Shown here one piece after another: positions 5,869 through 33,994 of a stretch of DNA of 33,994 nucleotides. How positions within the stretch are numbered: position 1 is the first letter of the stretch; each line of letters opens with the position of its first letter. Origin of the DNA: a virus; IMG/VR virus record IMGVR_UViG_3300008120_000169, positions 1 through 33,994 of that record; one strand, 5' to 3'. The translations under genes and the position numbers were made by a program. The notes beneath the pieces were generated by a model, which saw only the letters and a program-made list of their open reading frames with translations, was not told where the DNA came from and did not search any database.

Positions 5869-5869
5869 T

Positions 5870-8605: not shown

Positions 8606-8633
8606 TTGCATTTTGGTTTTTAACAAATAGAAT
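8606..8633 (+). promoter_or_regulatory. Putative promoter TTGCAT-N16-TAGAAT for the capsid gene
   Basis: The same hexamers and 16-bp spacing as the promoter at 3360-3387 appear just after the terminator. Transcription from here would give a leader of roughly 135 bases before the capsid ATG. That leader contains a small GCTGC/GCAGC hairpin (8693-8707) and ends with a strong AAGGAG site. The match of two independent copies makes chance less likely. Confidence 0.62.
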
Positions 8634-8777
8634 GCAACCATGGCCCACCGCTTTTAATAGCGACCCTGACCGCAGCGAGATGCTGACGATTGGCTGCCGT
8701 AAGCAGCAAGCACAGGCCCAGGTTACTGGCTCACCGACGCGATCAACCCTTTTTTTGACTAATTCAAGGAGCACGAA

Positions 8778-9632: not shown

Positions 9633-9647
9633 TAAGGGGAATCACAA

Positions 9648-9926: not shown

Positions 9927-9944
9927 TTGGTGACGTTGTAAACG

Positions 9945-9980
9945 GGCCAGCCACTGAGTAATCGGGGGCTGGCCTTTCTT
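9945..9980 (+). terminator. Rho-independent terminator after capsid operon
   Basis: A perfect 8-bp stem (GGCCAGCC pairing with GGCTGGCC) encloses a 14-base loop and is followed by TTTCTT. It separates the capsid pair from the tail genes. The T-tract is interrupted, so read-through into the tail operon is likely. No promoter was clear between it and the tail gene. Confidence 0.75.
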
Positions 9981-9996
9981 ACATTGAGAGGTTGAA

Positions 9997-12827: not shown

Positions 12828-12829
12828 AC

Positions 12830-13432
12830 ATGGCAGTCACAGCTGGTCAAATGTATGGTGTAGCTGGGCTCATTTCTGCCTACGGCCAATCGGAGGCGAT
12901 GAAGGCCCAGGGCATCTACAATCAAACCGCCTATCTTCTGCAGGCCAGAGACACGTTGGCCATAGCTGGCGTGCGGTCCGAAATGGACCTGCAATACGCA
13001 GAAATTCAAGCCGGACGCCTGCTCAAGAAAGCGGAGGTCGAGGCACAAAATTACACCATCGCTGGCAACTCATTGCTAAAAAATATGAGGGCCACAAATG
13101 CGGCCATGCGCGCCAGGGCGGCGGCGTCTGGCGTGTCCTATGCCGAGGGGTCGGTTGCAGCTGTACAGAGAGAGAACGTGGCGGCCACATACAGAGACGT
13201 TGGCATCACAGACCTCAACGCGTTGACAGCCAGAGTAATGGGATTCGAGGACGCAAGCGCAATGTTGCAGTCAGCAGAAATGCAAAACATTTTGACTCAA
13301 TACTCAGCGCAGCGCCAGGCCGGCCAATACGAAATGGCTGGCGAGGCTGGCCGCAGAACTAGCGGTCTCATGGCAGGGGCCACCTTAACCGCAGGCGCGA
13401 TCCAGGGCGCCAAAACAATTTCAAAGGCGTAG
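12830..13432 (+). CDS. Internal virion protein (T7 gp14-like)
   Basis: The 200-aa protein is almost all helical and Ala-rich. It has 'AGLISAYGQSEAMKAQGIYN', 'AAMRARAAASGVSYAEGSVA', and a Gly/Ala-rich C-terminal segment (GLMAGATLTAGAIQGAKT) that could enter a membrane. This is the layout of the first internal core or ejection protein in T7-like phages, which forms the outer-membrane part of the ejection channel. It starts two bases after the nozzle gene and precedes the other core proteins. Confidence 0.8.
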   Translation: MAVTAGQMYGVAGLISAYGQSEAMKAQGIYNQTAYLLQARDTLAIAGVRSEMDLQYAEIQAGRLLKKAEVEAQNYTIAGNSLLKNMRATNAAMRARAAASGVSYAEGSVAAVQRENVAATYRDVGITDLNALTARVMGFEDASAMLQSAEMQNILTQYSAQRQAGQYEMAGEAGRRTSGLMAGATLTAGAIQGAKTISKA

Positions 13433-13435
13433 AAC

Positions 13436-15163
13436 ATGGCAGAGCGAAGAATTGAGTCTGGTCGCGCACAGATTGCTGGGGTTGGCGGGGCGCCGCTGCA
13501 GCGGGTTGCTATGCCCCAGGTTGACTACGTTGGGGTGCGCGCCGAAGGTCAGGCGGCCGGCCAGCTATCACAGCTGCTAGAAAGAATGAGCTCCACTCTA
13601 TTTAAGGAGGCTGGCGAGCTGCGCCAGAAAGAGGGCCTGGAGTTTGTGGCCACAAATCCCATTACCCCGGAACAGCTTGAGGCCGCAAAAGGCGGCAGCA
13701 TTCAGCCACTAGGTTTAGGCGGCGGTCTTTCTATTTTTGATCAAGCGGTGCGCAAGGCAAGGGCAATTGAGATTGCTGGTCACTTTGAAATGGAGGGCCG
13801 CAACGAGCTTACAAAACTGCTTACGCAAGTCGAAACCGGACAGGCAACATCCGCTGACGTTGAAACAAAAATTAAGGCTTTCACAGACGGGTACACAAAA
13901 ACAGTTTCACAGATTGACCCAGAGGCGTCGTTTAAGTTTAGAGCCACAATGGCCACACAGGGCAACGCAATTCTAAAGTCGGCATACGAGACAGAGCTCA
14001 AGCGCGCCAAGAACCAGCGAATCGCCAAGTTTGACATGGATTTTGACAATCAGATGAGATTGCTGGAGGCGGCTGTGGCGCAGGACCCCAATAACATAGA
14101 GGGCATAGCTTCCGTCGCTCGCAATAATATTCAACTGCAGTCAATGATATTTGGCGACGCGGCCATACAGAAAGATTATTCCACTAAGTTCGAGGCCGGC
14201 TTGCGCAACGCCAAGATTAACGCGCTCACCAAAGTGCTAACCTCAGATGAGTTTATGGTTAACCCAGACGAAACATTATCTAAAATTCGTCAGGGAGAAA
14301 TTGGTAACTTAAGCCCCGTACTAAAGCAGATGATCAACACTGACTTTGACGCCGTGGCCAAGGTAACAGCAAACTTTATGGTGGCCGCAAACCAGCGCGA
14401 TACACTGGCAAAACAAAAAATAGATCGCAACAAGAGAGAGGGCGAGGCCGCAGCAATTAACTTGCTAGAGCAAATATTTCCGCTGCCAGACGGAGACCCA
14501 CGGCGAACAGCTTTGGTTTCACAATTAGTTGAACTGCCCCCCGGCTCTGTTCCAATTGGCACACTGAAAGACTTGCTAGATCCAAACGTGCGCAGCAACC
14601 CAATGGTGCTTGGAAATATTTACAATTTAATTGATAAAGGCGCCATCAACACTAAGGAACAAATCGACGCATACGTTGGCAAGGGCATTGGAGGAAACGA
14701 CTATGTGGCCCTGATTAAGTATCTTAATGCAGACGACAGACGAGACAAGCGAGATCTGCAGCAGGGTATCTCCAGGCTCGCTGGCATCCCGGTTATACCT
14801 GGCCAAATGATTGTGCTCGATCCCAAGGGAGCTGAGTTTCAGCGCCGCCAAGAGCTCGAGTCCGAGGCCCTGCGCATTCAGGCCGACGCGGCCAAGGGCG
14901 GGGTATCTCTAACCACGTCGCAAATCTTGCAGCAACTCGAAACCAACATTGCGGCTAGGCGTAAAAGTGAGTCTGCAATTAGCGCCACCAAGGCACTTGA
15001 GTTCTACGAGAAAAAGGATTGGATTGGCGGCCCGATTACTAGAGAAAAGCTTCCAGCCCTTGAGCGCAAGGCCGGAACAGACAAAAACAAACTAAACGAG
15101 CTGCGCCGTATTAAGACGCTGCTTGATCAAAAAGAAGGCATCACAGCTGGAGGTGCAAGATAA
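13436..15163 (+). CDS. Internal virion protein (T7 gp15-like position)
   Basis: The 575-aa protein is long, hydrophilic and helical, with no recognisable enzyme motif. Near the N-terminus is 'MPQVDYVGVRAEGQAAGQLSQLLERMS', a segment type common in podovirus internal proteins. It continues with charged helices such as 'DPEASFKFRATMATQGNAIL' and 'RNKREGEAAAINLLEQIFPL'. It lies second in the run of four ejection-type genes and is of usual size for the middle core protein. The stop overlaps the next start (TAATG). Confidence 0.78.
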   Translation: MAERRIESGRAQIAGVGGAPLQRVAMPQVDYVGVRAEGQAAGQLSQLLERMSSTLFKEAGELRQKEGLEFVATNPITPEQLEAAKGGSIQPLGLGGGLSIFDQAVRKARAIEIAGHFEMEGRNELTKLLTQVETGQATSADVETKIKAFTDGYTKTVSQIDPEASFKFRATMATQGNAILKSAYETELKRAKNQRIAKFDMDFDNQMRLLEAAVAQDPNNIEGIASVARNNIQLQSMIFGDAAIQKDYSTKFEAGLRNAKINALTKVLTSDEFMVNPDETLSKIRQGEIGNLSPVLKQMINTDFDAVAKVTANFMVAANQRDTLAKQKIDRNKREGEAAAINLLEQIFPLPDGDPRRTALVSQLVELPPGSVPIGTLKDLLDPNVRSNPMVLGNIYNLIDKGAINTKEQIDAYVGKGIGGNDYVALIKYLNADDRRDKRDLQQGISRLAGIPVIPGQMIVLDPKGAEFQRRQELESEALRIQADAAKGGVSLTTSQILQQLETNIAARRKSESAISATKALEFYEKKDWIGGPITREKLPALERKAGTDKNKLNELRRIKTLLDQKEGITAGGAR

Positions 15164-16929
15164 TGTCGTGGTCTGAAATTGAAAACGCATACTTGGACCG
15201 CCTGGCGGCATATGAATTTCCTGGCACCCCACCGGCAGAACAAGAGCCAGCCAAGGGACCAGAGGTAACACAGCCCAGTGCGGCACCAGCTGAGATGAGA
15301 GCCATCCCACGCAATGAAACCCTGGGAGCTGTTGCTGACTTTGTTGGCCGGGTACGAGAGATGGCCAACCAATATGAGATTAAAGATTGGGTCCCACTTC
15401 TTGGTGGCCTGGGCGTTGGTGATCTGTTGGTGGGCAAGTCTCCAGAGGAGATTGAAAATTGGGCATACGGCAACCTGCCCGCCACTATGCCGCCACCTGG
15501 CACCGGAGGTTATGTGCCGGTAATGAAGACCGGACGCAAGCAGAGTGTGGCAGACACCGCAATGCTAGGGCTCGATGTTGCTGGCCCAGCTGTTGGAGTT
15601 GGCAAGATAGCAAAAAATATAGCCACCGAGATTGCTACGACACCACCTGTGGGCGCAATCAATATTGACGCATTTAATCCGCAGCAAGAAATTAAAACAG
15701 CTGTAGATTTGGTGGCCAAAAATCCAGAGACATCTATTTATGTGCCGCAGGCAAATCGCGCGCCATCTGTTGCGTTATCAGTTACAAAACCAGAAATTAT
15801 TGGAACTGGCAGCAAAGGAATTATTACCGTCTCTGATGCTGGTAAATTTTTAGAGCAAACACAAGTTACATTTAATGGCGGCAAAATATTAGATCCTACT
15901 AATTCTCAAGACTTAACTCGAATGATTGACTCTGCATCAGCTGAAGCAGAGTTTCAACTATCGCAGCCAATTAGTGGTGCTACCTGGTACGAAGACGATG
16001 TGGCCACCGCATTTAAGTTGTCATCTAAGATTGTGCCAGAGCTAGCCACGGACGAGCCATTACGCGTGTTAACCACAGCATTTGCGGCATCCACTAGCTA
16101 CAACACAAGAGCTGGAGCAAACTGGGGAATAGCTACAAAAATTTCGGATCATTTAATTAAGACCGGAACCATAGCTGCCCGCAACCCAGAAAACGGAAAA
16201 CTGTGGGGTGGCACCACTGGCCCTATCATGGAGCAGCAGCTCAAGCTCCATGAATATATGATTAAAAAAATGGGACTAGATGGCTATGCTAGTTGGCTGT
16301 TAACGCCTCACACAGTTAAAGAAATTACTCAGATGAAAATGGAATCCGGTCTCTATAAGAGCGCAACAACTCCCGGCAAGGCAACAGATATGAAAATGGG
16401 TGCGTTCATTATGGGCGAAAAGGGCGGTGCGTTTTTCTTGAATCTTAACGGTATAAAAGAAACCACGGCAGATAAGTGGTTTACCCGTACATTTAACAGA
16501 CACACCGGAACGCTGACTTCTGGCCCGGTATCCGAGCAAGGATTAGTTGACGCACCGCGCAATGAGGCAGAGCGGTCAGTAATGAAATCTTGGAACCGAG
16601 CTGTAGCTCAAAACGTCAACTTAGACGAGCAGGCAAACCAAGCTGTTCTGTGGTATTTTGAGCAAAACCTGTATTACAATTTAGGTGTTAAATCAGCAAG
16701 ATCGGAGAGCTTTTCAGATGGAGCCAAAAACCTACTCAACGCCAGAGGAATTGCCATCGACGAACCCACAGGAGCTGGAGCTGCAAGCGGCAGCAATGCG
16801 GGTAAAGCTAGAGCAAAACAGGCTGGCCCAACAGCAGCAGGGAATCCAATCAGTAGCGGATCGCCTGCGGCAGATGCAAACACAACAAACGTAGAGCGGG
16901 GCCAGGCTCCCGCAATGGGAGCTGAGTAA
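15163..16929 (+). CDS. Large internal virion protein with conserved globular domain
   Basis: The 588-aa protein begins 'SWSEIENAYLDRLAAYEFPG' and has a Pro/Ala-rich linker. From about residue 270 to 515 it has a well-conserved-looking globular domain ('GATWYEDDVATAF', 'PLRVLTTAFAASTSYNTRAGANW', 'MLGLDGYASWLL'-like helices, 'ALWYFEQNLYYNLG'-type end). I recall similar domains in polyvalent-type phage proteins but cannot name a reaction. The last 70 residues become low-complexity Gly/Ala/Ser, exactly where a second reading frame opens. It is probably ejected with the DNA. Both ends overlap neighbours by one to three bases. Confidence 0.68.
   Translation: MSWSEIENAYLDRLAAYEFPGTPPAEQEPAKGPEVTQPSAAPAEMRAIPRNETLGAVADFVGRVREMANQYEIKDWVPLLGGLGVGDLLVGKSPEEIENWAYGNLPATMPPPGTGGYVPVMKTGRKQSVADTAMLGLDVAGPAVGVGKIAKNIATEIATTPPVGAINIDAFNPQQEIKTAVDLVAKNPETSIYVPQANRAPSVALSVTKPEIIGTGSKGIITVSDAGKFLEQTQVTFNGGKILDPTNSQDLTRMIDSASAEAEFQLSQPISGATWYEDDVATAFKLSSKIVPELATDEPLRVLTTAFAASTSYNTRAGANWGIATKISDHLIKTGTIAARNPENGKLWGGTTGPIMEQQLKLHEYMIKKMGLDGYASWLLTPHTVKEITQMKMESGLYKSATTPGKATDMKMGAFIMGEKGGAFFLNLNGIKETTADKWFTRTFNRHTGTLTSGPVSEQGLVDAPRNEAERSVMKSWNRAVAQNVNLDEQANQAVLWYFEQNLYYNLGVKSARSESFSDGAKNLLNARGIAIDEPTGAGAASGSNAGKARAKQAGPTAAGNPISSGSPAADANTTNVERGQAPAMGAE
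16718..16894 (+). CDS. Nested out-of-frame ORF, 58-aa helical Gln-rich protein
   Basis: This short frame lies wholly inside the 3' end of the 588-aa virion gene. Its product looks like a real helical protein (STPEELPSTNPQELELQAAA, then MRVKLEQNRLAQQQQGIQSV, then ADRLRQMQTQQ). The host frame in the same stretch is low-complexity Gly/Ala/Ser. A CGGAGAG ribosome site sits at normal distance before its ATG. I take it as a probable overlapping gene, perhaps a small virion or assembly factor. It has no recognised family, and translation is not proven. Confidence 0.5.
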   Translation: MEPKTYSTPEELPSTNPQELELQAAAMRVKLEQNRLAQQQQGIQSVADRLRQMQTQQT

Positions 16930-19853
16930 TGGCCATCAAACCACTTGAGCAGCGCTTAGAATCAATTCTGCCGGCTGCAGATCAGATCACATCTGATCCA
17001 ATGGCTCCGGTCGAGCCAATGCCCGGTGAGGCCATCGAGGTCCCACAAATGGAGCTGCTGTCTGGTGAGCCAGGCACGCCAGGCATGGAAGACACCACCC
17101 AGGTCGCCGGGTTATTTGACAGGATAGTGCGTGGTGGAATTGGATCGGTTACCCGCAAGGCGCCCAAGGCAGAGCGCCAACTTGTGCCAGAGGGTAAACC
17201 CGGTGTACTGCCGGAACCAGAGAAGGTTGGCCGATTTAAGGTAATCCCGGAGGCAGACGAGCAGCTGACAAAACAAGTTGGCGAGGCCATAGAAACACGC
17301 CAGGTTTCCGGTGAGGTAACCGGCAAGCCACCAGAGGAAGCATTTAATCTGTCTCGGTTTCAGACCGAAGACGCAGCTGCTGTTGTGGGTGGCGTGGCAG
17401 ACGCGCTGGGGATTAAGACCAAGTCTGTAAGCTTTGATGAGATCAAGGCCAGGGCAAAGGAAAGCGGAATCTCCGAGGCGTTTCTGTCCAGGCTAACAGC
17501 TGCCGACGGGAAGATGTTGCCGTCAGCTGTGGAGACATACAAGGCGCTCGAGGTTCTAGAGAGCTCGGCCAACGAGCTCGACCGTCTTTTCAAGCTAGTC
17601 AACGAAGGCCAGGCCACCGACGCACAAAAGCTGCAGCTTAGGCAGCAGGTAGCATTCCACGGCCTGGTGCAAAAGGGCGTTAAGGGAATCCAGACCGAGA
17701 CGGCCAGGGCCCTCGCTGTGTTTCGTATTCCAAGAGAGGGCAACGCAGACATTATTCGCCAGGTGCTAGATGAGTACGGCGGCGATAGATCGTTGCAGGA
17801 TATGGCGCGTAGCTATCTGACCCTAGAGTCTCGCGCAGCTCGCAACCAAATGGTTGAGAAGTCAATGTTTTCTAGTGTCAGGGATGTGTGGTTCACGACA
17901 TTCATTAACGGCCTTCTGGCGTCCCCAACATCTCACGCTAAAAATATGTTGGGCAATAGTATGTTTGGGCTGTATCAGATCCCAGAGCGCTTGATGGCTG
18001 GTCTCTACTCACAGTATTTGCCAAAGGCCGCACGCGAGGGAGCGGTGCCAAAGTGGCTAGGTGGCAGCTCTGTGTGGGGCGACCTAGTTCCAGGGAGCGC
18101 AGCTGAAAAAATAGAGCTGGACGAGGCGCTGACCATGATTCAGTCTCTTCGCAATGGGGTTCCAGAGGGGTTGCAGCTGGCGTCCACGGCATTTCGGACT
18201 AACCAGGCCAGCGATCTAGCGAGCAAGGTAGAACTGCAGCGTATGCCACAGGAAGCTTTGGGCGAGACGCTGCAGAGGATAACCGGGGTTGGCCAGGAAA
18301 CCTGGTTGGGCAAGGCAATGGACTACTATGGCACAGCCGTTACCCTACCAGGACGAGCTCTGATGTCTGAGGATGAGTTCTTTAAGGGCGTCTTCTACAG
18401 GATACACCTTAACACTTTGATTGATCGGCGCGGCAAGTCCATCTACCGTCAAGCCATCGAGGGTGGCGCGTCGGAGTCAGACGCACTGGCCAGGCAGCAA
18501 GCGGAGATGACCTCATTATTTGAGAACCCACCCAAGGACCTAGACGACGCGGCGATGGAATTTGCCAGGCGCGGCACGTTTACCGGCGAGCTGCCACCCG
18601 CCTTGTCTGCGCTACAGAAAGTATTTAATCACCCGGCCCTGAAGATTGCGGTGCCGTTCTTTAAGACCCCAGCCAACATTGGCCTGGAGGTGATCGAGCG
18701 CACGCCATTTGCGCCGCTGTCGTCCAGGTTTAGAGATGACATAGGCAAGGGCGGCGTCTACCGTGACATGGCTCTAGCAAAGGTAACCCTTGGGTCCACC
18801 TTGCTGACTACCTTTGCGCTGATGGCCGGAGAGGGAACAATCACTGGTGGTGGCCCAAAGAGACCAGCGCAGCGCCAGGCGTGGGAGCGCACCGGGGCGA
18901 AACCATATTCGTTCAAGATTGGCGATGACTACTATAGCTACCAGGGCCTAGAGCCGATTGGCGCATTTATTGGTATGGCCGCGGACTACGCGGAATACGC
19001 GATGGAGGAGCCAGACGCCGGCAAGGTAGAACAGGTCGCCATGGGTATGGTGTACGGGTTCTATGAGTACATGAAGGAGCAGCCATACCTACAGGGCCTG
19101 GCCGAGATAACAAAGGCCCTGGGCCTTGGCAGGGGCTCCGGAGAGGTAGACGGAGCGAAGGTTGTCAACGAGCTCACAAAGCAGCTCGGCCAGTTTGTAA
19201 TTGGTGGGTCACCTTTGCCTGGCACGTCCGCGCTTGGCGGCGCACTCGAGCGCCTATTGGACCCAAATGCAACAAACGTAAACGCAGACCCAAATTTACC
19301 AATGGGGCTGCGCGGCCTGGTAACCGCCTGGAACAGGTACCGCTCGAGGCTGCCGTACTTTAATAGCGACCTTCCAGAGGACCTTAATCTGTGGGGAGAC
19401 CCAAAGATGCAGGCCAACGCAGACCCGACCATGCGTATTTTAGGCATGGTGTTACCAACTAGGGTTTCCCCTGACCAGTTCTCGGATGTAGACGACGAGC
19501 TGGTGCGCCTGGGGTCACCCATTGGAATGCCTGACCCCAAGGTAGGGTTTCAGATTGGCCAGGGCGAGGGCGCCATATCAGGCAACGTGGAGCTTAACGC
19601 CGACCAACGGCACCGGCTGCTGACAATCTATGGCAAGGAAACCAACGCCAAAGACGACATCTTGCGCCTGATCCGCACCCCCGGATTTGATCTTCTATCG
19701 AAGGCCGACCAGCAGCAGCAGGTCCAGAGACTGCACTCCAAGTATATGAATATCGCAAAGATGCAGCTGATGTCTGAGGACCCCGGCATCGAGGCCAAGA
19801 TCATTGAGCTCAATGAATTGCGCCAGGCCCACGGAAACTACTACAAACCTTAA
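16929..19853 (+). CDS. Largest internal virion/ejection protein (T7 gp16-like position)
   Basis: The 974-aa protein has an acidic, proline-rich N-terminal region (about residues 1-130) followed by long helices. A repeat-poor central domain includes 'VWFTTFINGLLASPTSHAKNMLGNS', which I recall from large phage DNA-ejection proteins. A hydrophobic segment near residues 614-640 (MALAKVTLGSTLLTTFALMAG) may cross the inner membrane. No lysozyme or transglycosylase motif is evident, unlike T7 gp16, so peptidoglycan cutting may lie elsewhere. It is the last of the core genes, before a promoter-like site and the fibre gene. Confidence 0.78.
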   Translation: MAIKPLEQRLESILPAADQITSDPMAPVEPMPGEAIEVPQMELLSGEPGTPGMEDTTQVAGLFDRIVRGGIGSVTRKAPKAERQLVPEGKPGVLPEPEKVGRFKVIPEADEQLTKQVGEAIETRQVSGEVTGKPPEEAFNLSRFQTEDAAAVVGGVADALGIKTKSVSFDEIKARAKESGISEAFLSRLTAADGKMLPSAVETYKALEVLESSANELDRLFKLVNEGQATDAQKLQLRQQVAFHGLVQKGVKGIQTETARALAVFRIPREGNADIIRQVLDEYGGDRSLQDMARSYLTLESRAARNQMVEKSMFSSVRDVWFTTFINGLLASPTSHAKNMLGNSMFGLYQIPERLMAGLYSQYLPKAAREGAVPKWLGGSSVWGDLVPGSAAEKIELDEALTMIQSLRNGVPEGLQLASTAFRTNQASDLASKVELQRMPQEALGETLQRITGVGQETWLGKAMDYYGTAVTLPGRALMSEDEFFKGVFYRIHLNTLIDRRGKSIYRQAIEGGASESDALARQQAEMTSLFENPPKDLDDAAMEFARRGTFTGELPPALSALQKVFNHPALKIAVPFFKTPANIGLEVIERTPFAPLSSRFRDDIGKGGVYRDMALAKVTLGSTLLTTFALMAGEGTITGGGPKRPAQRQAWERTGAKPYSFKIGDDYYSYQGLEPIGAFIGMAADYAEYAMEEPDAGKVEQVAMGMVYGFYEYMKEQPYLQGLAEITKALGLGRGSGEVDGAKVVNELTKQLGQFVIGGSPLPGTSALGGALERLLDPNATNVNADPNLPMGLRGLVTAWNRYRSRLPYFNSDLPEDLNLWGDPKMQANADPTMRILGMVLPTRVSPDQFSDVDDELVRLGSPIGMPDPKVGFQIGQGEGAISGNVELNADQRHRLLTIYGKETNAKDDILRLIRTPGFDLLSKADQQQQVQRLHSKYMNIAKMQLMSEDPGIEAKIIELNELRQAHGNYYKP

Positions 19854-27075: not shown

Positions 27076-27516
27076 ATGCTACCAATAGCAGCTCTGCTCT
27101 CAATCGGAGAGAAGGTTTTAGACAAGGTTCTGCCTGATCCAGGCGCGAAGGCAGAGGCCCAGGCCAAGCTTATGGAGATGGCACAGAAGGGCCAGCTCGC
27201 GGAGCTCGAGTCTCACGTCAAGGAGATGGACTCAGCCCGCAAGCGCGAGATTGAGATTGCCACCAGCGCAGCCGCTCCAATACTTAACAAAATTGTTACA
27301 CCCATCCTGGCGCTCGGTACCGTGGGGCTCACGTTCATTTTGTTTGCGGTCATTATTTTTGTGGACGTTGACGCTAACTCTAAGGACATTCTGATCTATG
27401 TCCTGGGCGCACTAACCAGCGCAGTCACAATGGTGCTCGGCTACTACTTTGGATCGAGCGCGGGGTCAAAAGAAAAGAGCCAACAGCTTGACGAGATACT
27501 GGACAAGAAGAAATGA
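27076..27516 (+). CDS. Holin, 3-TM-like family
   Basis: The 146-aa protein has the layout of the Holin_3TMs type. The N-terminal segment is 'PIAALLSIGEKVLDKVLPDPGAKAEAQAKL'-like (broken as two halves). A charged helix with 'VKEMDSARKREIEIATS' follows, then two strong transmembrane helices (IVTPILALGTVGLTFILFAV and ILIYVLGALTSAVTMVLGYY). The tail is lysine-rich (LDEILDKKK). It is followed by the endolysin with a 4-bp overlap, as expected for a holin that releases or times the endolysin. Confidence 0.87.
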   Translation: MLPIAALLSIGEKVLDKVLPDPGAKAEAQAKLMEMAQKGQLAELESHVKEMDSARKREIEIATSAAAPILNKIVTPILALGTVGLTFILFAVIIFVDVDANSKDILIYVLGALTSAVTMVLGYYFGSSAGSKEKSQQLDEILDKKK

Positions 27517-27977
27517 ACCTGACCGACAACTTTACTTTAGAGGAGCTGGTTAAAAGCGAGACAGCTCTTCGCCACAACATTGACAACACACCAGGGGAGA
27601 TTGAAATTGAAAACCTTAAAAGACTATGTGAAAAGATTCTTCAACCTGTTAGAGAGCATTTCAACACGGGGGTCAAAGTCAACTCCGGTTACCGCAGCCC
27701 AGCCGCCAATCAAAAAGTCGGTGGCTCGCCCACGTCGGACCACTGCAAAGGGCAAGCAGCGGACATCGAAATCCCAGGCATCCCGAACGCGGACCTAGCA
27801 ATCTGGATCATGGACAACCTGGAATACACCCAGCTCATACTTGAGTTCTACACGCCGGGTGTTCCAGATTCTGGGTGGGTCCACGTTTCATATGACCCAG
27901 GAAACCTTAAAAAACAAAACCTAACAGCGACCAAGCAGGCAGGCAAAACAGTCTACCTGCCTGGTCTGGTTGCCTAA
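27513..27977 (+). CDS. Endolysin, peptidase M15-type (D-Ala-D-Ala carboxypeptidase-like)
   Basis: The 154-aa zinc peptidase has 'VNSGYRSPAANQKVGG' (about 56-71) and SDHCKGQAADIE with His77 and Asp84. It then has GWVHVSYD with His124, which together give the M15 metal ligands. It would cut peptide cross-links of peptidoglycan. No signal peptide or cell-wall-binding domain is seen, so export depends on the holin. It ends two bases from the stop of the convergent lipoprotein gene. Confidence 0.92.
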   Translation: MNLTDNFTLEELVKSETALRHNIDNTPGEIEIENLKRLCEKILQPVREHFNTGVKVNSGYRSPAANQKVGGSPTSDHCKGQAADIEIPGIPNADLAIWIMDNLEYTQLILEFYTPGVPDSGWVHVSYDPGNLKKQNLTATKQAGKTVYLPGLVA

Positions 27978-28225
27978 AAAACAAACCTGGGAGCGCAGGT
28001 AACGTCCACCACAATGTCTGTGGTGAATCCGTTGATCTTGCGCTTTCCGTTTATAACGACAGCTCTCAGGCCAGAGCTCTCGCACTCTCTCACGGCGATG
28101 ATGACCTCATTGCGAGACATCGCTTGCACCTGCTTGTCCATCACAATCTCTTGCGTCTTTGGCGCATCAACTGTGGGGTTGGCTGCGCACCCAGACACCA
28201 ACAAAACTAAGGCTAGATATCTCAT
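27974..28225 (-). CDS. Small lipoprotein, 83 aa
   Basis: The N-terminus is a lipoprotein signal: MRYLALVLLVSGC, with Cys13 as the lipid-attachment site after LVSG. The mature part contains 'AMSRNEVIIAVRECESSG' and 'TDIVVDVTCAPRFVF', with two further cysteines that could pair. A similar pattern is known to me from small phage lipoproteins of unknown function. It is the last gene of the leftward RecT operon (ATGA overlap with recT), convergent with the endolysin. It could be a spanin-type outer subunit or a surface-exclusion protein; neither is shown. Confidence 0.68.
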   Translation of the reverse strand: MRYLALVLLVSGCAANPTVDAPKTQEIVMDKQVQAMSRNEVIIAVRECESSGLRAVVINGKRKINGFTTDIVVDVTCAPRFVF

Positions 28226-29229
28226 GCTGCCTCCCCCTCTAACATGGCACCCAGCGTGGCCAGGCGCTTACTGTAGGCCGCCGTGTGATTGATTCTGTCT
28301 GCGGGTGTAATTTTTTTCATCACAGATTCGTTGGCCTCCTTGAGCTGGCGCAGAGCTGTCATCCTCTCCCGAGGTGGGCGCAGCTTTGCCCTGGCTGTCT
28401 TGTCTGCCATCACTTCGTAGGCCGCGGCCCAATCAGATAGCGTCGAGTATTCGGCTACGGGTTCATCTTTGCCAGGCACAAATAGGTGGTGGCACGACTC
28501 AGGCTTTCCCTCGGGCTCCTGGGCGACCTCCTCTTCCATCTGAGCTGATGCCTGCTCCACCTCAACATGGTGGCGCTGGCCGTCGTCGCCCTCTGCGGCG
28601 GGCTCCGGCAGATCAGGTAGGGCAACCATAGGCTCCGGCTTTGGGAGGGCGTCTAGCGGGTTCCTGGTCGCCTTCGCGGGGGTGATGTCTCTCTCTGGTT
28701 GGCCTGGGAAATCTTGGGCCTCCTCGACGGTGATCAATCCCTTGAGTACATCTGGGAACGCATCGCGCAGCGCAAAACCCCGAGCTCTCATCTGCATCAT
28801 TCGCTTTGGGTACGCCTGCCATGGGCCGGCCTTGCCCCAGAGCCCAGCTCGCTTTGCGTCCTCGACTGAGAACTTGACCGTGACCGGAGTGCGCCCCTTG
28901 CGCTTTGCCACGCAAATCGCCACCGGGTTTGGGCTGCCCTCGCCATCGAAGTATTCCTCGATGTCTTCGCAGACAGGGCTGGCTTGCACCAGCGCCATAG
29001 CTGCGTCGCCGTAGACTGATGGCTTGCCGTTTATGCACGCGATGTTCTGCAGTGCCTGGAGCGGGGCCAGGCCCAGCTCGCGCCCCCACTGAATTGCTAC
29101 CAACACATCTTCTGGCTTTCCCTGGTACGCCTTTGGAACCATCTGTGACTTGGCCAACATATCGGAAAACCTCATGGCCTCATCGAGCGTTACGGGCGCA
29201 AAGCCCTGGTTAGTTTGTTGCAGCTGCAT
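28222..29229 (-). CDS. recT: RecT-family single-strand annealing protein
   Basis: RecT proteins anneal single strands made by a partner exonuclease. The core (about residues 10-175) has 'EAMRFSDMLAKSQMVPKAY', 'QWGRELGLAPLQALQNIACI', 'GKPSVYGDAAMALVQASP' and 'KRMMQMRARGFALRDAFPD', all matching this family. A long acidic, proline-rich linker then leads to a separate helical C-terminal segment (about 255-335) not usual for the core family. A GAAAGGAAAC ribosome site precedes the ATG. The YqaJ-type exonuclease lies in the same operon two genes upstream. Confidence 0.92.
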   Translation of the reverse strand: MQLQQTNQGFAPVTLDEAMRFSDMLAKSQMVPKAYQGKPEDVLVAIQWGRELGLAPLQALQNIACINGKPSVYGDAAMALVQASPVCEDIEEYFDGEGSPNPVAICVAKRKGRTPVTVKFSVEDAKRAGLWGKAGPWQAYPKRMMQMRARGFALRDAFPDVLKGLITVEEAQDFPGQPERDITPAKATRNPLDALPKPEPMVALPDLPEPAAEGDDGQRHHVEVEQASAQMEEEVAQEPEGKPESCHHLFVPGKDEPVAEYSTLSDWAAAYEVMADKTARAKLRPPRERMTALRQLKEANESVMKKITPADRINHTAAYSKRLATLGAMLEGEAA

Positions 29230-29422
29230 TTTTGTTTCCTTTCTTTTTTGGTGTCGAATCTAAACCCTTGATTTCCCCAAGCAAAGCCGCAAGATAAAAA
29301 AAGTAATCTTGAATAATCTCTTCTTGCGTTACTTTTGGAAGACCAAAGAAGCGAAGGTCTAAGCTAACGTAACCTTTCATGCCGCCCGATTTCCTATATC
29401 TCAGAGTTGCAAGCTTTGGCAT
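29210..29422 (-). CDS. Hypothetical protein, 70 aa
   Basis: The product begins MPKLATLRYRKSGGMKGYVS and continues with 'LDLRFFGLPKVTQEEII'; the tail is lysine-rich. I chose the ATG at 29422 because AAGGAGG lies at ideal spacing; a longer form starting upstream would lack this. No family is recognised. It lies between the exonuclease and recT genes, overlapping recT by 20 bp, so a recombination accessory role is possible from context only. Confidence 0.6.
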   Translation of the reverse strand: MPKLATLRYRKSGGMKGYVSLDLRFFGLPKVTQEEIIQDYFFYLAALLGEIKGLDSTPKKKGNKNAAATN

Positions 29423-29690
29423 TTTTGTCCTCCTTATGTTGATGTTTTGCGGTTTTATCGACACGTTGTTGGTTTGTGTCGATGGCGTGTACACAATTGT
29501 GTTGCTCATCAATTAAAAATTGATCCACGGTATCGAGCACGACCGTGACTAGCGCGTCCACTACGTCCATTGCGCGGTCTCGATTCATAAAGGCGCCCGG
29601 TGTTCGATTGGCAGCATCAAAACACAGCGCCTGCAGCTTAAGCGCCGCCTGCAACCGTGAGTTCATAAGCTTTTGGTCTTTTGGGCTCAT
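29394..29690 (-). CDS. Hypothetical protein, 98 aa
   Basis: The ATG lies in an ATGA overlap with the exonuclease stop. The N-terminal 60 residues are helical ('SRLQAALKLQALCFDAANR', then 'RAMDVVDALVTVVLDTVDQF'), and the tail is polar with many His, Lys and Asp (KTAKHQHKEDKNAKAC). It overlaps the start of the next gene by 29 bp. No family is recognised. It may be a helper of the nuclease, by position only. Confidence 0.58.
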   Translation of the reverse strand: MSPKDQKLMNSRLQAALKLQALCFDAANRTPGAFMNRDRAMDVVDALVTVVLDTVDQFLIDEQHNCVHAIDTNQQRVDKTAKHQHKEDKNAKACNSEI

Positions 29691-30652
29691 TTATTTTTTA
29701 CCTCCTTAATTGATACGGTGGACTGTCTGATGGTGTATGCATCCTTCGCCGGAACGGTCTTGGCTGGCTGCGCCTTGTAGTTTTTAATTGGCCACTTGAT
29801 GACATACTGGCCAGCGACACCACCCTCGGCGTTTCCAAGCAGCGACTTGATTGCTTGCTCGCTTGCGGCAACGTCGTCTTCTAATTTTTTAATTTCATTT
29901 TTAGCTGACAATATCGAGGCCGCGAGGATAGCTGCGCGCTCATCGAGCTGCAGTGTCTCCTCCGTGACGGGGTATGGTCCGCGGCGCTCTGGCCAGCGCT
30001 CTCCGTCCACCGGTGGATAGTAGTCAATCTCGCCGGTCTCCTTCCACTTGTCTAGCTTGTCTTGGAACTCTCTGGATACCCTGGCAATGTAGTCGATAGT
30101 TTCCTGGTGCGGCTCAAATAAAAATATCCGCAGGGCCGTGCCACGGTAGAGCGTGGCCACGCATCCCCACTTCGCGTGGACAATGTCCATCTGCGCCTGC
30201 AGCTGGATAGGCCCGCGCCACAGTGGCGGGGTGTCTTCTACGTCCATCGAGGTTAACTTGGCCTCGAGCACTCCGACGCCATCTAGTCTGATGCTGTCAG
30301 CTCCGACGACATATATGCCGGATTCTGGATCGTGGTGGATCACCTGGCCGCCACCATCTCCGGTCCCATCGAGGGAGCAGCACAGCGGCAGCTCCGCGTG
30401 GTACCTGGCGCTGGGGTGATCGATTACCAGGTCAGACAGGCGCAGGCGCTCGGCGGCCTGGGACAAAATGAGGGGCTCCATGAGATTACCCCAGGCCATG
30501 GCCTCATTGCCAATGTCTTCGCGCTCGATAAACTGCATCGCGTTGATTGAGCACTCGAGCTCATCATTTGGGGTCCGGTACTTCGATAGTCCCATGACAG
30601 CTGTGAGACGAGATGCCGACAGCATTGTGTCGGGCGTGACTTTACTTACCAT
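29687..30652 (-). CDS. YqaJ-type PD-(D/E)XK exonuclease (recT partner)
   Basis: The 321-aa nuclease would resect double-strand ends so that RecT can act. The lambda-exonuclease-like active site is visible: MAWGNLMEPLI (Glu59), CCSLDGTG (Asp95) and GVLEAKL (Glu130-x-Lys132), followed by QLQAQMD (about 150-156). The N-terminus 'SASRLTAVMGLSKYRTPNDE' is typical. A C-terminal helix with 'DERAAILAASILSAKNEIKK' and a beta tail follow. It lies upstream of recT in a leftward operon and is preceded by an HTH protein that overlaps its start. Confidence 0.92.
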   Translation of the reverse strand: MVSKVTPDTMLSASRLTAVMGLSKYRTPNDELECSINAMQFIEREDIGNEAMAWGNLMEPLILSQAAERLRLSDLVIDHPSARYHAELPLCCSLDGTGDGGGQVIHHDPESGIYVVGADSIRLDGVGVLEAKLTSMDVEDTPPLWRGPIQLQAQMDIVHAKWGCVATLYRGTALRIFLFEPHQETIDYIARVSREFQDKLDKWKETGEIDYYPPVDGERWPERRGPYPVTEETLQLDERAAILAASILSAKNEIKKLEDDVAASEQAIKSLLGNAEGGVAGQYVIKWPIKNYKAQPAKTVPAKDAYTIRQSTVSIKEVKNK

Positions 30653-30860
30653 TTTTCTTTCCCTTCAATTTAATTAGTCGATAGCTAGCGTAGCGCTTGC
30701 CGTTGCTGTAAATCATGGTGGTGTGAATGTTGTGGCCAATATCGCGTAGCTCTGCGATCCTGGCCGCCAGGCGAAAGCACTGGCACCCGGCCAGCGCAGC
30801 GATTGGCGTAACGTGAACACCGCGTTGCAGCTCCTCAAGAATCCACTCATTCTGTCTCAT
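30642..30860 (-). CDS. Small helix-turn-helix protein (HTH_39-like)
   Basis: The 72-aa protein has 'ILEELQRGVHVTPIAALAGC', then 'FRLAARIAELRDIGHNIHT' and 'NGKRYASYRLIKL'. This is the layout of a short winged HTH family in phages and mobile elements. It may bind DNA in regulation or recombination. A GAGGAG site precedes the ATG. Its end overlaps the exonuclease start by 11 bp, so the two are co-translated. The target is unknown; autoregulation of the leftward operon is possible. Confidence 0.8.
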   Translation of the reverse strand: MRQNEWILEELQRGVHVTPIAALAGCQCFRLAARIAELRDIGHNIHTTMIYSNGKRYASYRLIKLKGKKNGK

Positions 30861-30872
30861 GGGGTGAGCTCC

Positions 30873-31040
30873 TCAGACAAACATTGCGGTCAGGATCACA
30901 GCCGCCAGGCACACGGTTGCAATTACCTTGAGCCAGGTCGGGTCTTCGTCCTGGGCCGGCTCCACCGGCAGGTTGTCACGCCAGCTGCGGGCAAAGTTGG
31001 TACGCGGGTCAACGAAGTGGTCTTGCTTTACTTTTCTCAT
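30873..31040 (-). CDS. Small membrane protein, 55 aa (cytoplasmic N-terminus)
   Basis: The product is polar for the first 35 residues (MRKVKQDHFVDPRTNFARSW…) and ends with one transmembrane helix (WLKVIATVCLAAVILTAMFV). An AGAGGAAAAA ribosome site precedes the ATG. It sits between another small membrane protein and the HTH gene in the leftward operon. No family is recognised. Confidence 0.58.
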   Translation of the reverse strand: MRKVKQDHFVDPRTNFARSWRDNLPVEPAQDEDPTWLKVIATVCLAAVILTAMFV

Positions 31041-31056
31041 TGATTTTTCCTCTAGT

Positions 31057-31224
31057 TTAGTTATCGAATGGTGCGTGGTTCTGCAGCTGATCGACCATCT
31101 TGCCCAGCTCTCTCTTCTGCTGGGCGGTCAATCGGTTGCAGTGAATGCGGTCGGAGCGGTGGACCACCCAGCCAATGGCCAGGGTGAATCCCACAATGCC
31201 GACCAGAAACAGAACGCCATACAT
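31057..31224 (-). CDS. Small membrane protein, 55 aa (N-terminal TM helix)
   Basis: The N-terminus is one hydrophobic helix (YGVLFLVGIVGFTLAIGWVV), followed by a polar cytoplasmic-type tail (RSDRIHCNRLTAQQKRELGK…). The ATG overlaps the serine recombinase stop (ATGA). The opposite layout of the next gene (polar then TM) makes a two-part membrane system possible, but this is only a suggestion. No family is recognised. Confidence 0.58.
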   Translation of the reverse strand: MYGVLFLVGIVGFTLAIGWVVHRSDRIHCNRLTAQQKRELGKMVDQLQNHAPFDN

Positions 31225-31871
31225 CAGGCGGCCCGTCTCATTAGGTTGGCCACCTGGCTAGGCGACCATGTGATATTGCCGCGTGGCGTACATACGCCGC
31301 GAGCTGACAGCGCAGCTGCAATGTCGCGCAGCGACTTGGACCCGGTCTTGGCTATGATCTCGCGGACCACTGGACCAACGCGGTTGGCAAACGCATCTGC
31401 GCTTGCCTGGACGGCCTCGACGCCTGCAGCTGATGCTTTGGCTGGGTTTGGGGACCCAAGCTTGACCCCGCGGGCCTTGGCCGCTGCCAGGGCCGCCTTG
31501 GTGCGGCGAGATATCTCCTCCCGTTCGTGCTGGGCGAAGATAGCGCGCATACCGAAATCAAGGGTGCCAGCGTGTGGCATATCTGCGGCCACAATGTTGA
31601 TACCGGAGCCGCGCAGCGTAAACAGAAACCCGGCATCACGCGATAGGCGGTCAATCTTGGCAATCAGTAACGCGGCCTTGAGTTTCTTGGCCATCGCAAT
31701 CGCGGCTGCGAGCTGCGGGCGATCATTGTCTTTGCCGGACTCGATCTCGGTGAACGAGTGAACAATTTGTGTAGCGTATGACGCTACAGCTGCTTGCTGG
31801 GCCTCGAGGCCGAGGCCAGAGGCGCCCTGCTTGTCGGTGCTGACGCGGTAGTAGGCAACGTATTTTTCCAT
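31224..31871 (-). CDS. Small serine recombinase (resolvase/invertase family)
   Basis: The 215-aa protein starts MEKYVAYYRVSTDKQGASGL, with catalytic Ser11 and Arg9. It has the resolvase core 'AAIAMAKKLKAALLIAKIDR', 'LSRDAGFLF', 'MRAIFAQHEREEISRRTKA'. The C-terminal DNA-binding end (about 175-213) contains 'SKSLRDIAAALSARGV' and 'TWSPSQVANLMRRA'. Such enzymes resolve dimers, invert DNA or, in larger forms, integrate. The size is that of resolvases and invertases, not phage integrases. I found no obvious inverted copy of tail genes as an invertase target. It is the second gene of the leftward operon. Confidence 0.92.
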   Translation of the reverse strand: MEKYVAYYRVSTDKQGASGLGLEAQQAAVASYATQIVHSFTEIESGKDNDRPQLAAAIAMAKKLKAALLIAKIDRLSRDAGFLFTLRGSGINIVAADMPHAGTLDFGMRAIFAQHEREEISRRTKAALAAAKARGVKLGSPNPAKASAAGVEAVQASADAFANRVGPVVREIIAKTGSKSLRDIAAALSARGVCTPRGNITWSPSQVANLMRRAA

Positions 31872-31873
31872 GA

Positions 31874-32056
31874 TTAAGCCCCTACCAAATGCTTAATCAG
31901 GATTGACTTTGCGTGCTCTGCGTCTTTGGCCGCGTAGTCAGGGCAAATGCTTTGCTCTGTGCCGTTGTCATAAACAGCAACCCACCATGCTGGGATTGTC
32001 GCTTTGATGCGAGCGTTATAGCGCTCTGGCTGTAAGTAGATTTCAACTAATTTCAT
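31874..32056 (-). CDS. First gene of leftward operon, hypothetical 60 aa
   Basis: The product MKLVEIYLQPERYNARIKAT… has Trp-Trp and Tyr-Asp-Asn-Gly in a beta-like centre (IPAWWVAVYDNGTEQSICPD) and a helical C-terminus (AAKDAEHAKSILIKHLVG). No family is recognised. I used the ATG preceded by AGGAG at proper distance, not an earlier in-frame ATG 48 bases upstream. It starts about 30 bp from the palindromic operator and two bases before the serine recombinase, so it is expressed first when the leftward promoter is on. Confidence 0.62.
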   Translation of the reverse strand: MKLVEIYLQPERYNARIKATIPAWWVAVYDNGTEQSICPDYAAKDAEHAKSILIKHLVGA

Positions 32057-32085
32057 TTTCAACTCCTGTATCTCGGTGGTTGGTG

Positions 32086-32100
32086 ATTGCACTGTGCAAT
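32086..32100. promoter_or_regulatory. Perfect palindromic operator ATTGCACTGTGCAAT
   Basis: The arms ATTGCAC and GTGCAAT are exactly complementary around a central base. It lies ten bases downstream of the leftward -10, so a bound protein would block transcription start. A related GCACTGTG core appears on the opposite strand near 32217-32231, next to the rightward gene start. The ribbon-helix-helix protein encoded beside it is a likely binder. Confidence 0.65.
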
Positions 32101-32109
32101 ACAAAACGA

Positions 32110-32138
32110 ATAGTGCCTAAGTTGTTTTGCAATGTCAA
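32110..32138 (-). promoter_or_regulatory. Leftward sigma70-like promoter TTGACA-N17-CACTAT
   Basis: On the minus strand, TTGACA (32138-32133) is followed after 17 bp by CACTAT (32115-32110). The -35 is a perfect consensus. The transcript would start within or beside the palindromic operator and run through the recombinase, exonuclease, recT and lipoprotein genes. Confidence 0.65.
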
Positions 32139-32183
32139 ACCCCCTGTAAGCAGGTAATTTATAGGTGGTTTCCCTAATATTGG

Positions 32184-32211
32184 TTGCCCATGATCGCATT
32201 CGGTTATTATT
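32184..32211 (+). promoter_or_regulatory. Rightward promoter-like element TTGCCC / TATTAT
   Basis: TTGCCC (32184-32189) and TATTAT/ATTATT (32205-32211) lie 15-16 bp apart, upstream of the ribbon-helix-helix gene. The partial operator copy at 32217-32231 would overlap the transcription start. The hexamers are imperfect, so confidence is moderate. Confidence 0.5.
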
Positions 32212-32216
32212 CGGTG

Positions 32217-32231
32217 CATTCACAGTGCTAC
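32217..32231. promoter_or_regulatory. Partial second operator copy
   Basis: Read on the minus strand, this is GTAGCACTGTGAATG, sharing the GCACTGTG core of the perfect palindrome. It lies between the rightward promoter and the gene start. It fits a weaker second site for the same protein. Confidence 0.4.
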
Positions 32232-32243
32232 CAAAGGAACTAA

Positions 32244-32432
32244 ATGGCAACCCAGAACCGCCCACTGATGGTTAGGCTGCGCCCTGACACGCGTCAGCTG
32301 CTCGAGAGGGCAGTTGAGGACCAGCGCCGCAGCCGCTCTAGCCTGGTCGAGCAGGCCCTGCGCGAGATGCTCGAGGCCAGGTACGCGGATGTCGCGTCTA
32401 GGCTAGATCAGATGTTGGGCGGTGTGCGATGA
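32244..32432 (+). CDS. Ribbon-helix-helix (CopG/Arc-type) DNA-binding protein
   Basis: The 62-aa protein has the fold's short beta strand 'RPLMVRLRP', helix 'DTRQLLERAVEDQRRS' and second helix 'SLVEQALREMLEARYADV'. Such dimers bind short palindromes and often repress their own gene. It is preceded by AAAGGA at good distance and flanked by the palindromic operator, so control of the divergent promoters is the simplest role. It also resembles plasmid copy-number or partition regulators in size. The end overlaps the nuclease gene by 4 bp. Confidence 0.85.
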   Translation: MATQNRPLMVRLRPDTRQLLERAVEDQRRSRSSLVEQALREMLEARYADVASRLDQMLGGVR

Positions 32433-32785
32433 ATGGCCGGGGCAGAAGAAACAAGGGAGCCACTGGCGAGCGCGAGCTGGCCGGGATACTCTCTGACCAG
32501 CTGGGGTTCGAGGTCAAGCGCAAGCTTGGCCAGGCCAGGGACGGTGGCCACGACATCGAGATAGGGCGGTTTTGCATCGAGGTCAAGCGCCAGGAGCGCC
32601 TGGCCATCGAGGATTGGTGCAAGCAGGTCGAGCTCTCGGTTACCACCAGCTCACAAATCGATTCTGAGGGCTCTGTGGGCTCGCCTGTGCCCGTGGTGAT
32701 ATTTAGGCGCTCTGGGCAGCCCTGGAGGGCCGTGGTGCCCTTGGATTGGTTCTGTAAGGCAGTGAGGGAGGACCTCGGTGGCTAA
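32429..32785 (+). CDS. PD-(D/E)XK nuclease, Holliday-junction-resolvase-like
   Basis: The 118-aa protein has 'KGATGERELAGILSDQLG' with Glu14, then 'ARDGGHDIEIGRFCIEVKRQE' split around the catalytic residues Asp42 and Glu51-x-Lys53. 'PVVIFRRSGQPWRAVVPLDWF' follows. This matches small archaeal/phage Hjc-type resolvases or related Vsr-like nucleases. It would cut branched DNA made during replication or recombination, before packaging. It overlaps both neighbours by a few bases. Confidence 0.87.
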   Translation: MNGRGRRNKGATGERELAGILSDQLGFEVKRKLGQARDGGHDIEIGRFCIEVKRQERLAIEDWCKQVELSVTTSSQIDSEGSVGSPVPVVIFRRSGQPWRAVVPLDWFCKAVREDLGG

Positions 32786-32978
32786 CGAGCTATACAGGCA
32801 CGTCACACTGAGGGAAGAGGCCGTGTTGGGCACCAGGTGGTGCTCGCACTGTATGCATCGACGACCAATTGAGGGTGGCATATGGAAGATGTTGAACGGG
32901 GGAAAGAACCGGCGGTGGCAGTGCCTGAGTTGCGCAACGAACCAGAAGTTGAGAGCTGCTCAGACTGCAAGAACGTAA
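32778..32978 (+). CDS. Small zinc-ribbon protein, 66 aa
   Basis: The product starts with GTG in an overlap with the nuclease gene. It contains a four-Cys zinc-binding pattern: WCSHCMHRRP and WQCLSC, about 25 residues apart. Such small zinc-ribbon phage proteins often bind nucleic acids or host polymerase. No specific family is recognised. Confidence 0.72.
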   Translation: MANELYRHVTLREEAVLGTRWCSHCMHRRPIEGGIWKMLNGGKNRRWQCLSCATNQKLRAAQTART

Positions 32979-33067
32979 GTTTTAGGGGATGGTTTCTGTG
33001 GTGTCGATTCTTTGATAAGCCAACGACCGGGAGGGTCAACGGATGTTCCGCATACCAACGAGAGTGA
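32882..33067 (+). CDS. Overlapping small Cys-rich protein, up to 61 aa
   Basis: This frame overlaps the end of the preceding gene by 97 bp. The C-terminal part 'SCSDCKNVSF…WFLWCRFFDKPTTGRVNGCSAYQRE' has four cysteines and a C-x(n)-NGC-x-Y ending, like a real metal-binding protein. The start is not clear: the ATG at 32882 would leave an odd Glu/Pro-rich N-terminus, and GTG at 32918 is an alternative. The Cys pattern is the main support. Confidence 0.5.
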   Translation: MEDVERGKEPAVAVPELRNEPEVESCSDCKNVSFRGWFLWCRFFDKPTTGRVNGCSAYQRE

Positions 33068-33308
33068 CGAGCTACGCTGCCGGTCTTGCGGCTGTGTGCA
33101 CCCTGATTCTCGGATGGTCAATCTGTCTTACGGTGGCGCTGTTGGGAATTATTCTGAAAAGTATTTCTTGCACGGCGAGGCTGCGTGGGTGCTCAAGAAG
33201 TATCGCTCCAAGAGGACCCGCCTGGCTTACCTCGATGCTGTGGAAGAGAAAAGGGGGCGAGCCGCCCGAGTGGCGCTACGGGAAGAGATGTCCGAGACAG
33301 GGCCCTGA
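33012..33308 (+). CDS. Cys-containing helical protein, up to 98 aa
   Basis: The protein has 'CRSCGCVHPDSRMV' near the N-terminus and then a charged helical end ('AAWVLKKYRSKRTRLAYLDA', 'EEKRGRAARVALREEMS'). The start may be TTG at 33012 or an internal ATG in 'SRMVNLSYGG'. Its 3' end is open in a second frame that leads to the winged-helix gene. I prefer this frame over an overlapping hydrophobic one, because its C-terminal half has normal helical composition. Confidence 0.52.
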   Translation: MISQRPGGSTDVPHTNESDELRCRSCGCVHPDSRMVNLSYGGAVGNYSEKYFLHGEAAWVLKKYRSKRTRLAYLDAVEEKRGRAARVALREEMSETGP

Positions 33309-33994
33309 CTGATGGTCAGCTGCGAGCTCTGGCCATTCTGTGCTCATATTGCAACCGAGCCGGGATAACCTGGGTAAGCCAGGGCAGGTTGGCCAAGGAT
33401 ATGCAGGTGAGCCAGCAATCGATATCAAAGCACCTGAAGGCTCTGTCAGCTGCTGGGTATATCGAGGTCACCGCCAAGGGATTCCGGGGCGAGAGAGCCA
33501 ACACCACGAGGGTGATCTACGACCCAACGGTCACCCAGGTGGATGCGATAGCTATCACTAGCGGCCAGGAAGACACCAGGCCACCAGAGACAAGGCGCAG
33601 GGAGACCAAAGAGATGGCCCAGCAAGGAGAGGATGTAACCCGGTCGGGAAATAACCAGCCATCACAGGCCAACAAAGCACCAGACTTACCCGATCAGGAA
33701 CCTGAGTTCACAGAGGAGCAGATGGCAGCCAACCGAAAGCGCCTCAAAGAGATGCTCGGAGGATTAGCAGGCAGGGATGGATTTCACTACAACAGACCAG
33801 AGAAGATAGGAGACATGATGGCCAGGAAACCGAAGGCAAAACAGAGCTCTCATACACAACCCAATGAGGTTGTGAATGACAAGGGCTCCCATACACAACC
33901 ACATACACAACCTAATACGGTTGTGGAAACACAGAAGAACATAGGTATAGATAGGTTGTTTATGTCTATAGGTTTAGAAATAAATAAAGAATTA
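33185..33994 (+). CDS. 5' part of winged-helix putative replication initiator (continues at position 1)
   Basis: From 'RDRALTDGQLRALAILCSYC' onward the protein has a winged-helix domain: 'ITWVSQGRLAKDMQVSQQSI', 'KHLKALSAAGYIEVTAKG'. A basic, Pro/Gln-rich linker and a charged C-terminus follow. Such wHTH proteins with an N-terminal DNA-binding domain are common phage and plasmid replication initiators. It is 330 aa across the circular junction if the GTG at 33185 is used; no ATG is in frame, and a rare CTG at 33305 is the alternative. The repeats encoding HTQP motifs lie in its own gene. No polymerase or helicase is encoded, so it probably recruits host replication proteins. Confidence 0.75.
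   Translation, partial: MGAQEVSLQEDPPGLPRCCGREKGASRPSGATGRDVRDRALTDGQLRALAILCSYCNRAGITWVSQGRLAKDMQVSQQSISKHLKALSAAGYIEVTAKGFRGERANTTRVIYDPTVTQVDAIAITSGQEDTRPPETRRRETKEMAQQGEDVTRSGNNQPSQANKAPDLPDQEPEFTEEQMAANRKRLKEMLGGLAGRDGFHYNRPEKIGDMMARKPKAKQSSHTQPNEVVNDKGSHTQPHTQPNTVVETQKNIGIDRLFMSIGLEINKEL
33851..33925. repeat. Iteron-like repeats: two CACAACC-N6-GGTTGTG palindromes and a single half-site
   Basis: CATACACAACC occurs three times (33851, 33890, 33902). The first and third copies are each followed, after exactly six bases, by the inverted arm GGTTGTG (33868-33874 and 33919-33925). The two palindromes are 51 bp apart centre to centre, with the lone half-site between them. An imperfect arm GGTTGTT follows in the AT-rich tract (33954). 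Both arms would not be needed to encode the HTQP protein repeat, so the DNA itself is probably the constrained element. I read it as initiator-binding sites. Confidence 0.65.
33913..33994. repeat. Right copy of 82-bp terminal direct repeat
   Basis: These 82 bases equal the first 82 bases of the window. Joining the two copies gives a circle of 33,912 bp. The repeat begins inside the second iteron palindrome and covers the AT-rich tract. Confidence 0.95.
33926..33994. other. AT-rich tract next to iteron-like repeats (candidate DNA-unwinding element)
   Basis: Directly after the last inverted repeat the sequence becomes AT-rich and stays so through the circular junction to about position 130. 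It contains three copies of ATAGGT (starting 33941, 33951 and 33968), the first two exactly 10 bp apart. A repeat block followed by an AT-rich tract inside an initiator-like gene is the architecture of the lambda O gene/ori. The origin role is inferred from the layout only. Confidence 0.5.

Follow-up and report, generated by a model that had tools for sequence, protein, structure and literature searches.

The window analysed here is the whole stretch of 33,994 nucleotides from an uncultured phage (IMG/VR record IMGVR_UViG_3300008120_000169). Its bases 1-82 repeat bases 33913-33994, and because of this 82-bp terminal overlap the unique circle is 33912 bp. The locus of interest spans the circular junction and contains the following features.

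33302-33994, plus strand: initiator gene before the circular junction, encoding the winged helix (HTH_36), the linker and the putative origin (ORF list; Pfam and PHROG matches)
26-265, plus strand: 3' end of the initiator gene, encoding the C-terminal helical domain, with the stop codon at 263-265
33413-33454, plus strand: codons of the predicted recognition helix (QQSISKHLKAL...), placed by helix 82-95 in the AlphaFold model of L343, a close relative
33413-33415, plus strand: first Gln codon of the predicted recognition helix; its residue covaries with a half-site base
33290-33293, no strand assigned: join lacking 129 nt including the initiator start codon, as seen by comparison with relatives
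33855-33874, no strand assigned: dyad 1 of the putative origin, CACAACC-CAATGA-GGTTGTG, exact match
33890-33900, plus strand: lone half-site CATACACAACC (7-bp half-site proper at 33894-33900), kept in all close relatives
33906-33925, no strand assigned: dyad 2 of the putative origin, CACAACC-TAATAC-GGTTGTG, exact match, running into the terminal repeat
33926-33994, no strand assigned: initial portion of the AT-rich tract, probably the unwinding element (same DNA as bases 14-82)
33953-33965, minus strand: degenerate half-site AGGTTGTTTATGT (reverse of ACATAAACAACCT), an inverted repeat kept in close relatives
83-133, no strand assigned: remainder of the AT-rich tract past the circular junction (the 100-bp AT maximum starts at 34)

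The reading frame of the initiator gene stays open through the junction up to its stop codon. The N-terminus of the encoded protein matched the HTH_36 (pfam13730) winged helix with a Pfam E value of 4e-9, as did 54/54 family members. A PHROG replication initiation family matched 53/54 members, and O-like PHROG families matched up to 51/54, weakly and mainly over the DNA-binding half. The HTH_36 match and the replication-initiation families support the proposal of the initial annotation that this winged-helix gene encodes an initiator. A structural model of L343 was obtained with AlphaFold using a 54-row alignment (pLDDT 74), which replaced a poor single-sequence run (pLDDT 42). The model showed a canonical winged helix at residues 46-115 (helices 48-59, 71-78 and 82-95; strands 98-102 and 112-115) and C-terminal helices at 258-327. 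The origin-encoded segment at 219-257 was modelled at very low confidence, as in disordered segments. The model thus suggests that the putative origin encodes a disordered linker between the winged helix and the C-terminal helices. The best PDB fold matches of the initiator were the plasmid initiator structures 5kbj and 4pt7, and these were weak (best Foldseek E 5.5e-3).

The copy of the gene in the window is incomplete. A segment of 129-132 nt with the ATG start is present in all comparable relatives and missing from the window at 33290/33293. Over 27299-33290 the window shows 100% identity to one relative, L166, in which the 129 nt are nevertheless present; past the join on the right, the window agrees with the L125 type. 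Since L166 is intact while identical over the preceding 6 kb, the missing 129 nt probably reflect an assembly join of two strains. As the window copy probably contains such a join, the function of the initiator is argued here from its relatives. The neighbourhood of the circular junction is supported by an 18-kb contig behind L126 and L159. As a separate observation on the contig ends, the terminal overlap that gives the window its circular look sits in a stretch identical between co-occurring strains, and the contigs L047, L064 and L151 likewise break or shift frame in or at this stretch.

Two CACAACC-N6-GGTTGTG palindromes with a lone half-site between them had been noted inside the winged-helix gene, and we confirmed both their sequence and their coordinates. 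The right part of dyad 2 has a second copy at 1-13, and the degenerate reverse half-site at 33953-33965 is an addition to the repeats listed earlier. The distance from dyad 1 to dyad 2 is 51 bp, and this spacing is identical in L012, L044, L051, L059 and L093. No other pair of perfect 7-bp-arm dyads with identical arms exists in the genome. Synonymous permutation of the initiator gene produced two such dyads in 0/5000 trials and one chance dyad in 23%. The AT-rich stretch, described as carrying three ATAGGT repeats and crossing the junction, was likewise found to extend to about 133 and is the AT maximum of the genome. The 100 bp from window position 34 (equivalent to 33946 onward, through the junction, to 133) are 78% AT, compared to 68% for the next-highest 100-mer, and this composition was reproduced in 0/1000 synonymous permutations of the gene. 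The ATAGGT copies start at 33941, 33951 and 33968, and the middle one overlaps the degenerate half-site. A minimum of the GC skew had been predicted near 33.9/0.1 kb, but the detrended cumulative skew is lowest at 31.4 kb and highest at 19.2 kb. In a phage of 34 kb whose early operon is divergent, GC skew is weak evidence either way, and it was set aside as an uninformative origin marker.

Relatives of the gene were sought in several collections. IMG/VR contained hundreds, from which 122 non-redundant copies were used. Isolated phages and plasmids, including the PLSDB plasmids, yielded no relative of the window protein by tblastn, nor did phages by blastn at the sensitivity used. A search of genome contigs returned one distant relative, L155, on a contig of a Chloroflexi metagenome-assembled genome (MAG); a single distant relative on a MAG contig is not a safe host call.

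Comparison among the relatives indicated that the repeats are maintained as DNA. Close relatives show 0-1 synonymous change in the 45 origin codons as opposed to about 31-34% elsewhere. Between the window and L012, synonymous changes number 0/45 in the origin codons and 56/179 elsewhere (P 4e-7); for a second origin type, the numbers are 0/43 in the origin and 51/228 elsewhere (P 5e-5). Across the family, the half-sites fall in all three codon frames and encode HTQP, HRQP, HSQP, HIDN or LTT-like peptides. Because the sites are read in different frames, it is the DNA and not the peptide that is conserved. The inverted arms are therefore conserved beyond what the HTQP codons need, and the repeats are neither absent nor scrambled synonymously in close relatives, the outcome that had been named as refuting an origin. 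The AT-rich flank recurs among the relatives: over 99 genes, AT content averages 69% in the 90 bp past the sites, compared to 45% in the gene before the sites, and the difference between the DNA downstream of the sites and the flank just upstream is significant (Wilcoxon P 3e-15). Rfam gave no match and no terminator-like hairpins were found at the dyads, and RNA-level roles were dropped for these reasons.

Perfect DnaA boxes (TTATCCACA) are present at the origin in 35 genes of the relatives. Their density is 0.91/kb at the origin and 0.020/kb elsewhere on the same contigs, a 46-fold excess, and mapping their presence onto the tree takes 8 changes. The origin in the window has no DnaA box. In L359, whose helix is unusual (IHQSQISRE), four tandem TGTGGATAAC units (DnaA boxes) lie in the origin region at about 0.7 of the initiator gene.

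Sites across the family were located by an unbiased search for repeated-dyad 6-mers, which replaced a count of the densest CAAC cluster that was noisy for Arg-type genes. This search found the same kind of site in most of the 122 genes, with a mean score of 6.3 compared to 2.5 in controls. Where the sites differ among relatives, the predicted recognition helix differs too, and the covarying pair consists of the first residue of this helix and the base before CAAC. Arg occurs with G in 48/48 genes and Gln with A in 28/28. Lys occurs with A in 23 genes and with T in 7 depending on the neighbouring residues (T with SK or NK, A with QVAR), and the remaining genes are without a CAAC-type motif. The resulting motifs are ACAACC for Gln-type helices, GCAACC for Arg-type, GTCAAC for KQ[AS][IV][SN]K-type and GACAAC for KQQVAR-type. 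A different core, GGACAC, is found where the helix Lys five residues beyond the first helix residue is replaced by Asn (ITNQ). These Asn-for-Lys initiators (L366, L370, L272, L298 and L287) have GGACAC sites instead of GCAACC, and several of them retain one GGCAAC half-site.

The covariation was also evaluated with respect to shared ancestry. Counted as distinct helix 9-mers, the agreement was 13/13, 12/12, 5/5 and 4/4. Path-disjoint contrasts on a tree built without the helix and origin columns agreed in 6/6 (Arg vs others), 5/5 (Gln vs Arg) and 5/5 (Lys-T) when all branches were used, supported or not; the contrast sets overlap and many branches are poorly supported. With well-supported branches only, there were 2 to 3 contrast pairs with none against, too few for significance. 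Arg-guanine and Gln-adenine are classic pairings, and the simplest reading is therefore that the first helix residue would contact the base before CAAC. The covariation likewise argues at the sequence level that the dyads may be bound by the winged-helix protein. As the helix residue varies in step with the DNA letter that it is expected to read across about 120 related phages, each protein seems to be matched to its own site.

We propose that this stretch is very probably the replication origin of an uncultured phage, carried inside its own initiator gene. The layout on which this rests consists of a winged helix encoded upstream, dyads and half-sites in the codons of the linker, an AT-rich tract beyond them and a separate C-terminal helical domain. 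Exact dyads, frozen synonymous sites, AT-rich flanks, the DnaA boxes of relatives and the helix-site covariation all support the original assignment as an origin. Against it stand the absent skew switch, the lack of a DnaA box in the window's origin, the lack of a start codon in the window's initiator and the weakness of the PDB matches.

Other functions could be imagined for the same repeats. The domain resembles the MarR and ArsR repressors and dyads are typical of operators, so that the winged-helix protein might regulate its own gene in a MarR-like manner from sites that are not an origin. The sites, however, lie deep in the coding region at about 77% of the gene length, no promoter-like match was found near them and no dyad of this kind occurs elsewhere in the genome, while the AT-rich flank and the DnaA boxes fit an origin; we regard autoregulation as very unlikely. 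The phage also encodes a 215-aa, invertase-like serine recombinase (31224-31871), and resolvase sites contain dyads. That the repeats are the resolution or inversion site of this enzyme is nonetheless extremely unlikely, as the site sequence tracks the recognition helix of the initiator in relatives and both DnaA boxes and AT-rich DNA adjoin the sites. Finally, the half-sites in the window do encode HTQP, and the repeats might be a by-product of a repeated peptide motif needed by the protein. This is scarcely credible given that in relatives this kind of site is translated in other frames into HIDN, LTT or YAT, or with other residues into HRQP or HSQP, that the synonymous sites are frozen and that the encoded stretch is modelled as disordered.

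The remainder of the genome bears on how such an origin would be used. It encodes RecT-like, RecE-like, SSB-like and RusA-like/PDDEXK proteins and the serine recombinase, together with podovirus-type head, tail, internal-virion and lysis genes. No match to a polymerase, a helicase or a loader (including P, DnaC and DnaB) was found among the main ORFs, in line with the initial annotation of a phage without its own polymerase or helicase, and replication would therefore have to use host enzymes. In the proposed origin mechanism, an initiator dimer would bind each dyad by way of the recognition helix, and the dyad-bound initiator would open the AT-rich tract. The host helicase and replisome would then be recruited by the C-terminal domain, acting with DnaA in some relatives; recruitment from the host is proposed since none of the main ORFs matched a helicase, a loader or a polymerase. 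On a separate note, the genome combines a RecT/RecE-like recombination module (28222-30652) with podovirus-type portal, tail-tube and internal virion genes (5840-19853) with no match to a phage RNA or DNA polymerase, and the short serine recombinase lies in its early region.

An origin within an initiator gene, with iterons and AT-rich DNA, is a layout already known from lambda O and from the plasmids pSK41 and pPR9. In lambda gene O (ori-lambda) and in the Stx-phage relatives P27 and 933W, the origin lies inside the initiator gene with an adjoining AT-rich unwinding region (PMC6022878, PMC7466680). The phage origin is similarly placed between the DNA-binding and C-terminal domains, with several inverted-repeat iterons adjoining an AT-rich tract. 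In contrast to lambda, its iteron sequence is different, its dyads occur together with single half-sites and the main ORFs include no match to a P-type helicase loader. The earlier description as lambda-O-like holds for the layout; as to homology with lambda O, the PHROG match is weak and mainly to the winged-helix half, and the window protein has no match to the Pfam lambda-O model. In pSK41 Rep (RepA_N), the Rep boxes lie centrally within rep; the Rep proteins of pSK41 and pPR9 have an N-terminal DNA-binding domain, an origin-encoded linker and a C-terminal domain thought to be host-specific, and pPR9 has a pfam13730 N-terminus and a different origin in place of those of pSK41 (PMC5703833). 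The phage protein shares pfam13730 with pPR9 Rep, and Rep-DNA and initiator structures came out as its top fold matches in the PDB; pSK41 and pPR9 are staphylococcal plasmids, whereas tblastn found no relative of the phage protein in PLSDB. There is no match of the window protein to the RepA_N Pfam domain, and the similarity is one of fold only. By domain, the phage module thus belongs with the pfam13730 initiators rather than RepA_N, and weakly with lambda O. The Vibrio cholerae PLE RepA also binds semi-palindromic iterons, and its replication modules change under antagonism (PMC8263062). The phage resembles the system of PLE RepA and the phage nuclease Odn in its semi-palindromic iterons for an initiator, but the PLE, a phage satellite, has its origin in noncoding DNA and not inside a gene.

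Identity computed per 20-codon DNA block shows that the DNA-binding domain and the origin, two separated blocks, changed together between L123 and L128. Identity between the two genes reaches 96% over the first 19 codons and 92-95% across much of the linker, but is only 45-70% over the DNA-binding domain and about 49% at the origin. A joint change of these two parts was similarly reported between pPR9 and pSK41 (PMC5703833). With the target contained in the gene itself, the DNA-binding domain and its sites would stay matched and could be swapped or evolve as a pair.

On balance, we lean towards reading these results jointly as a natural recognition code of HTH_36 winged helices, in which the first residue sets the base and Lys to Asn accompanies the new core GGACAC, with repeated switching between compatible types, perhaps as a way to escape attack on shared origins or titration by them. 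The open-access literature searched yielded no report of this covariation between residue and base, and this code is apparently the part that has so far gone undescribed. A large group of uncultured phages gains a defined origin, an initiator and a predicted mode of replication with host enzymes only. Each such gene contains both reader and target, and metagenomes therefore offer more than 100 natural protein-DNA pairs; specificity among winged-helix initiators and the incompatibility of origins in co-infecting phages become questions that a small binding matrix can test. In the more distant relatives L382 and L360 the repeated sites are different again (GACAAG; TGATAA dyads), which makes further codes probable.
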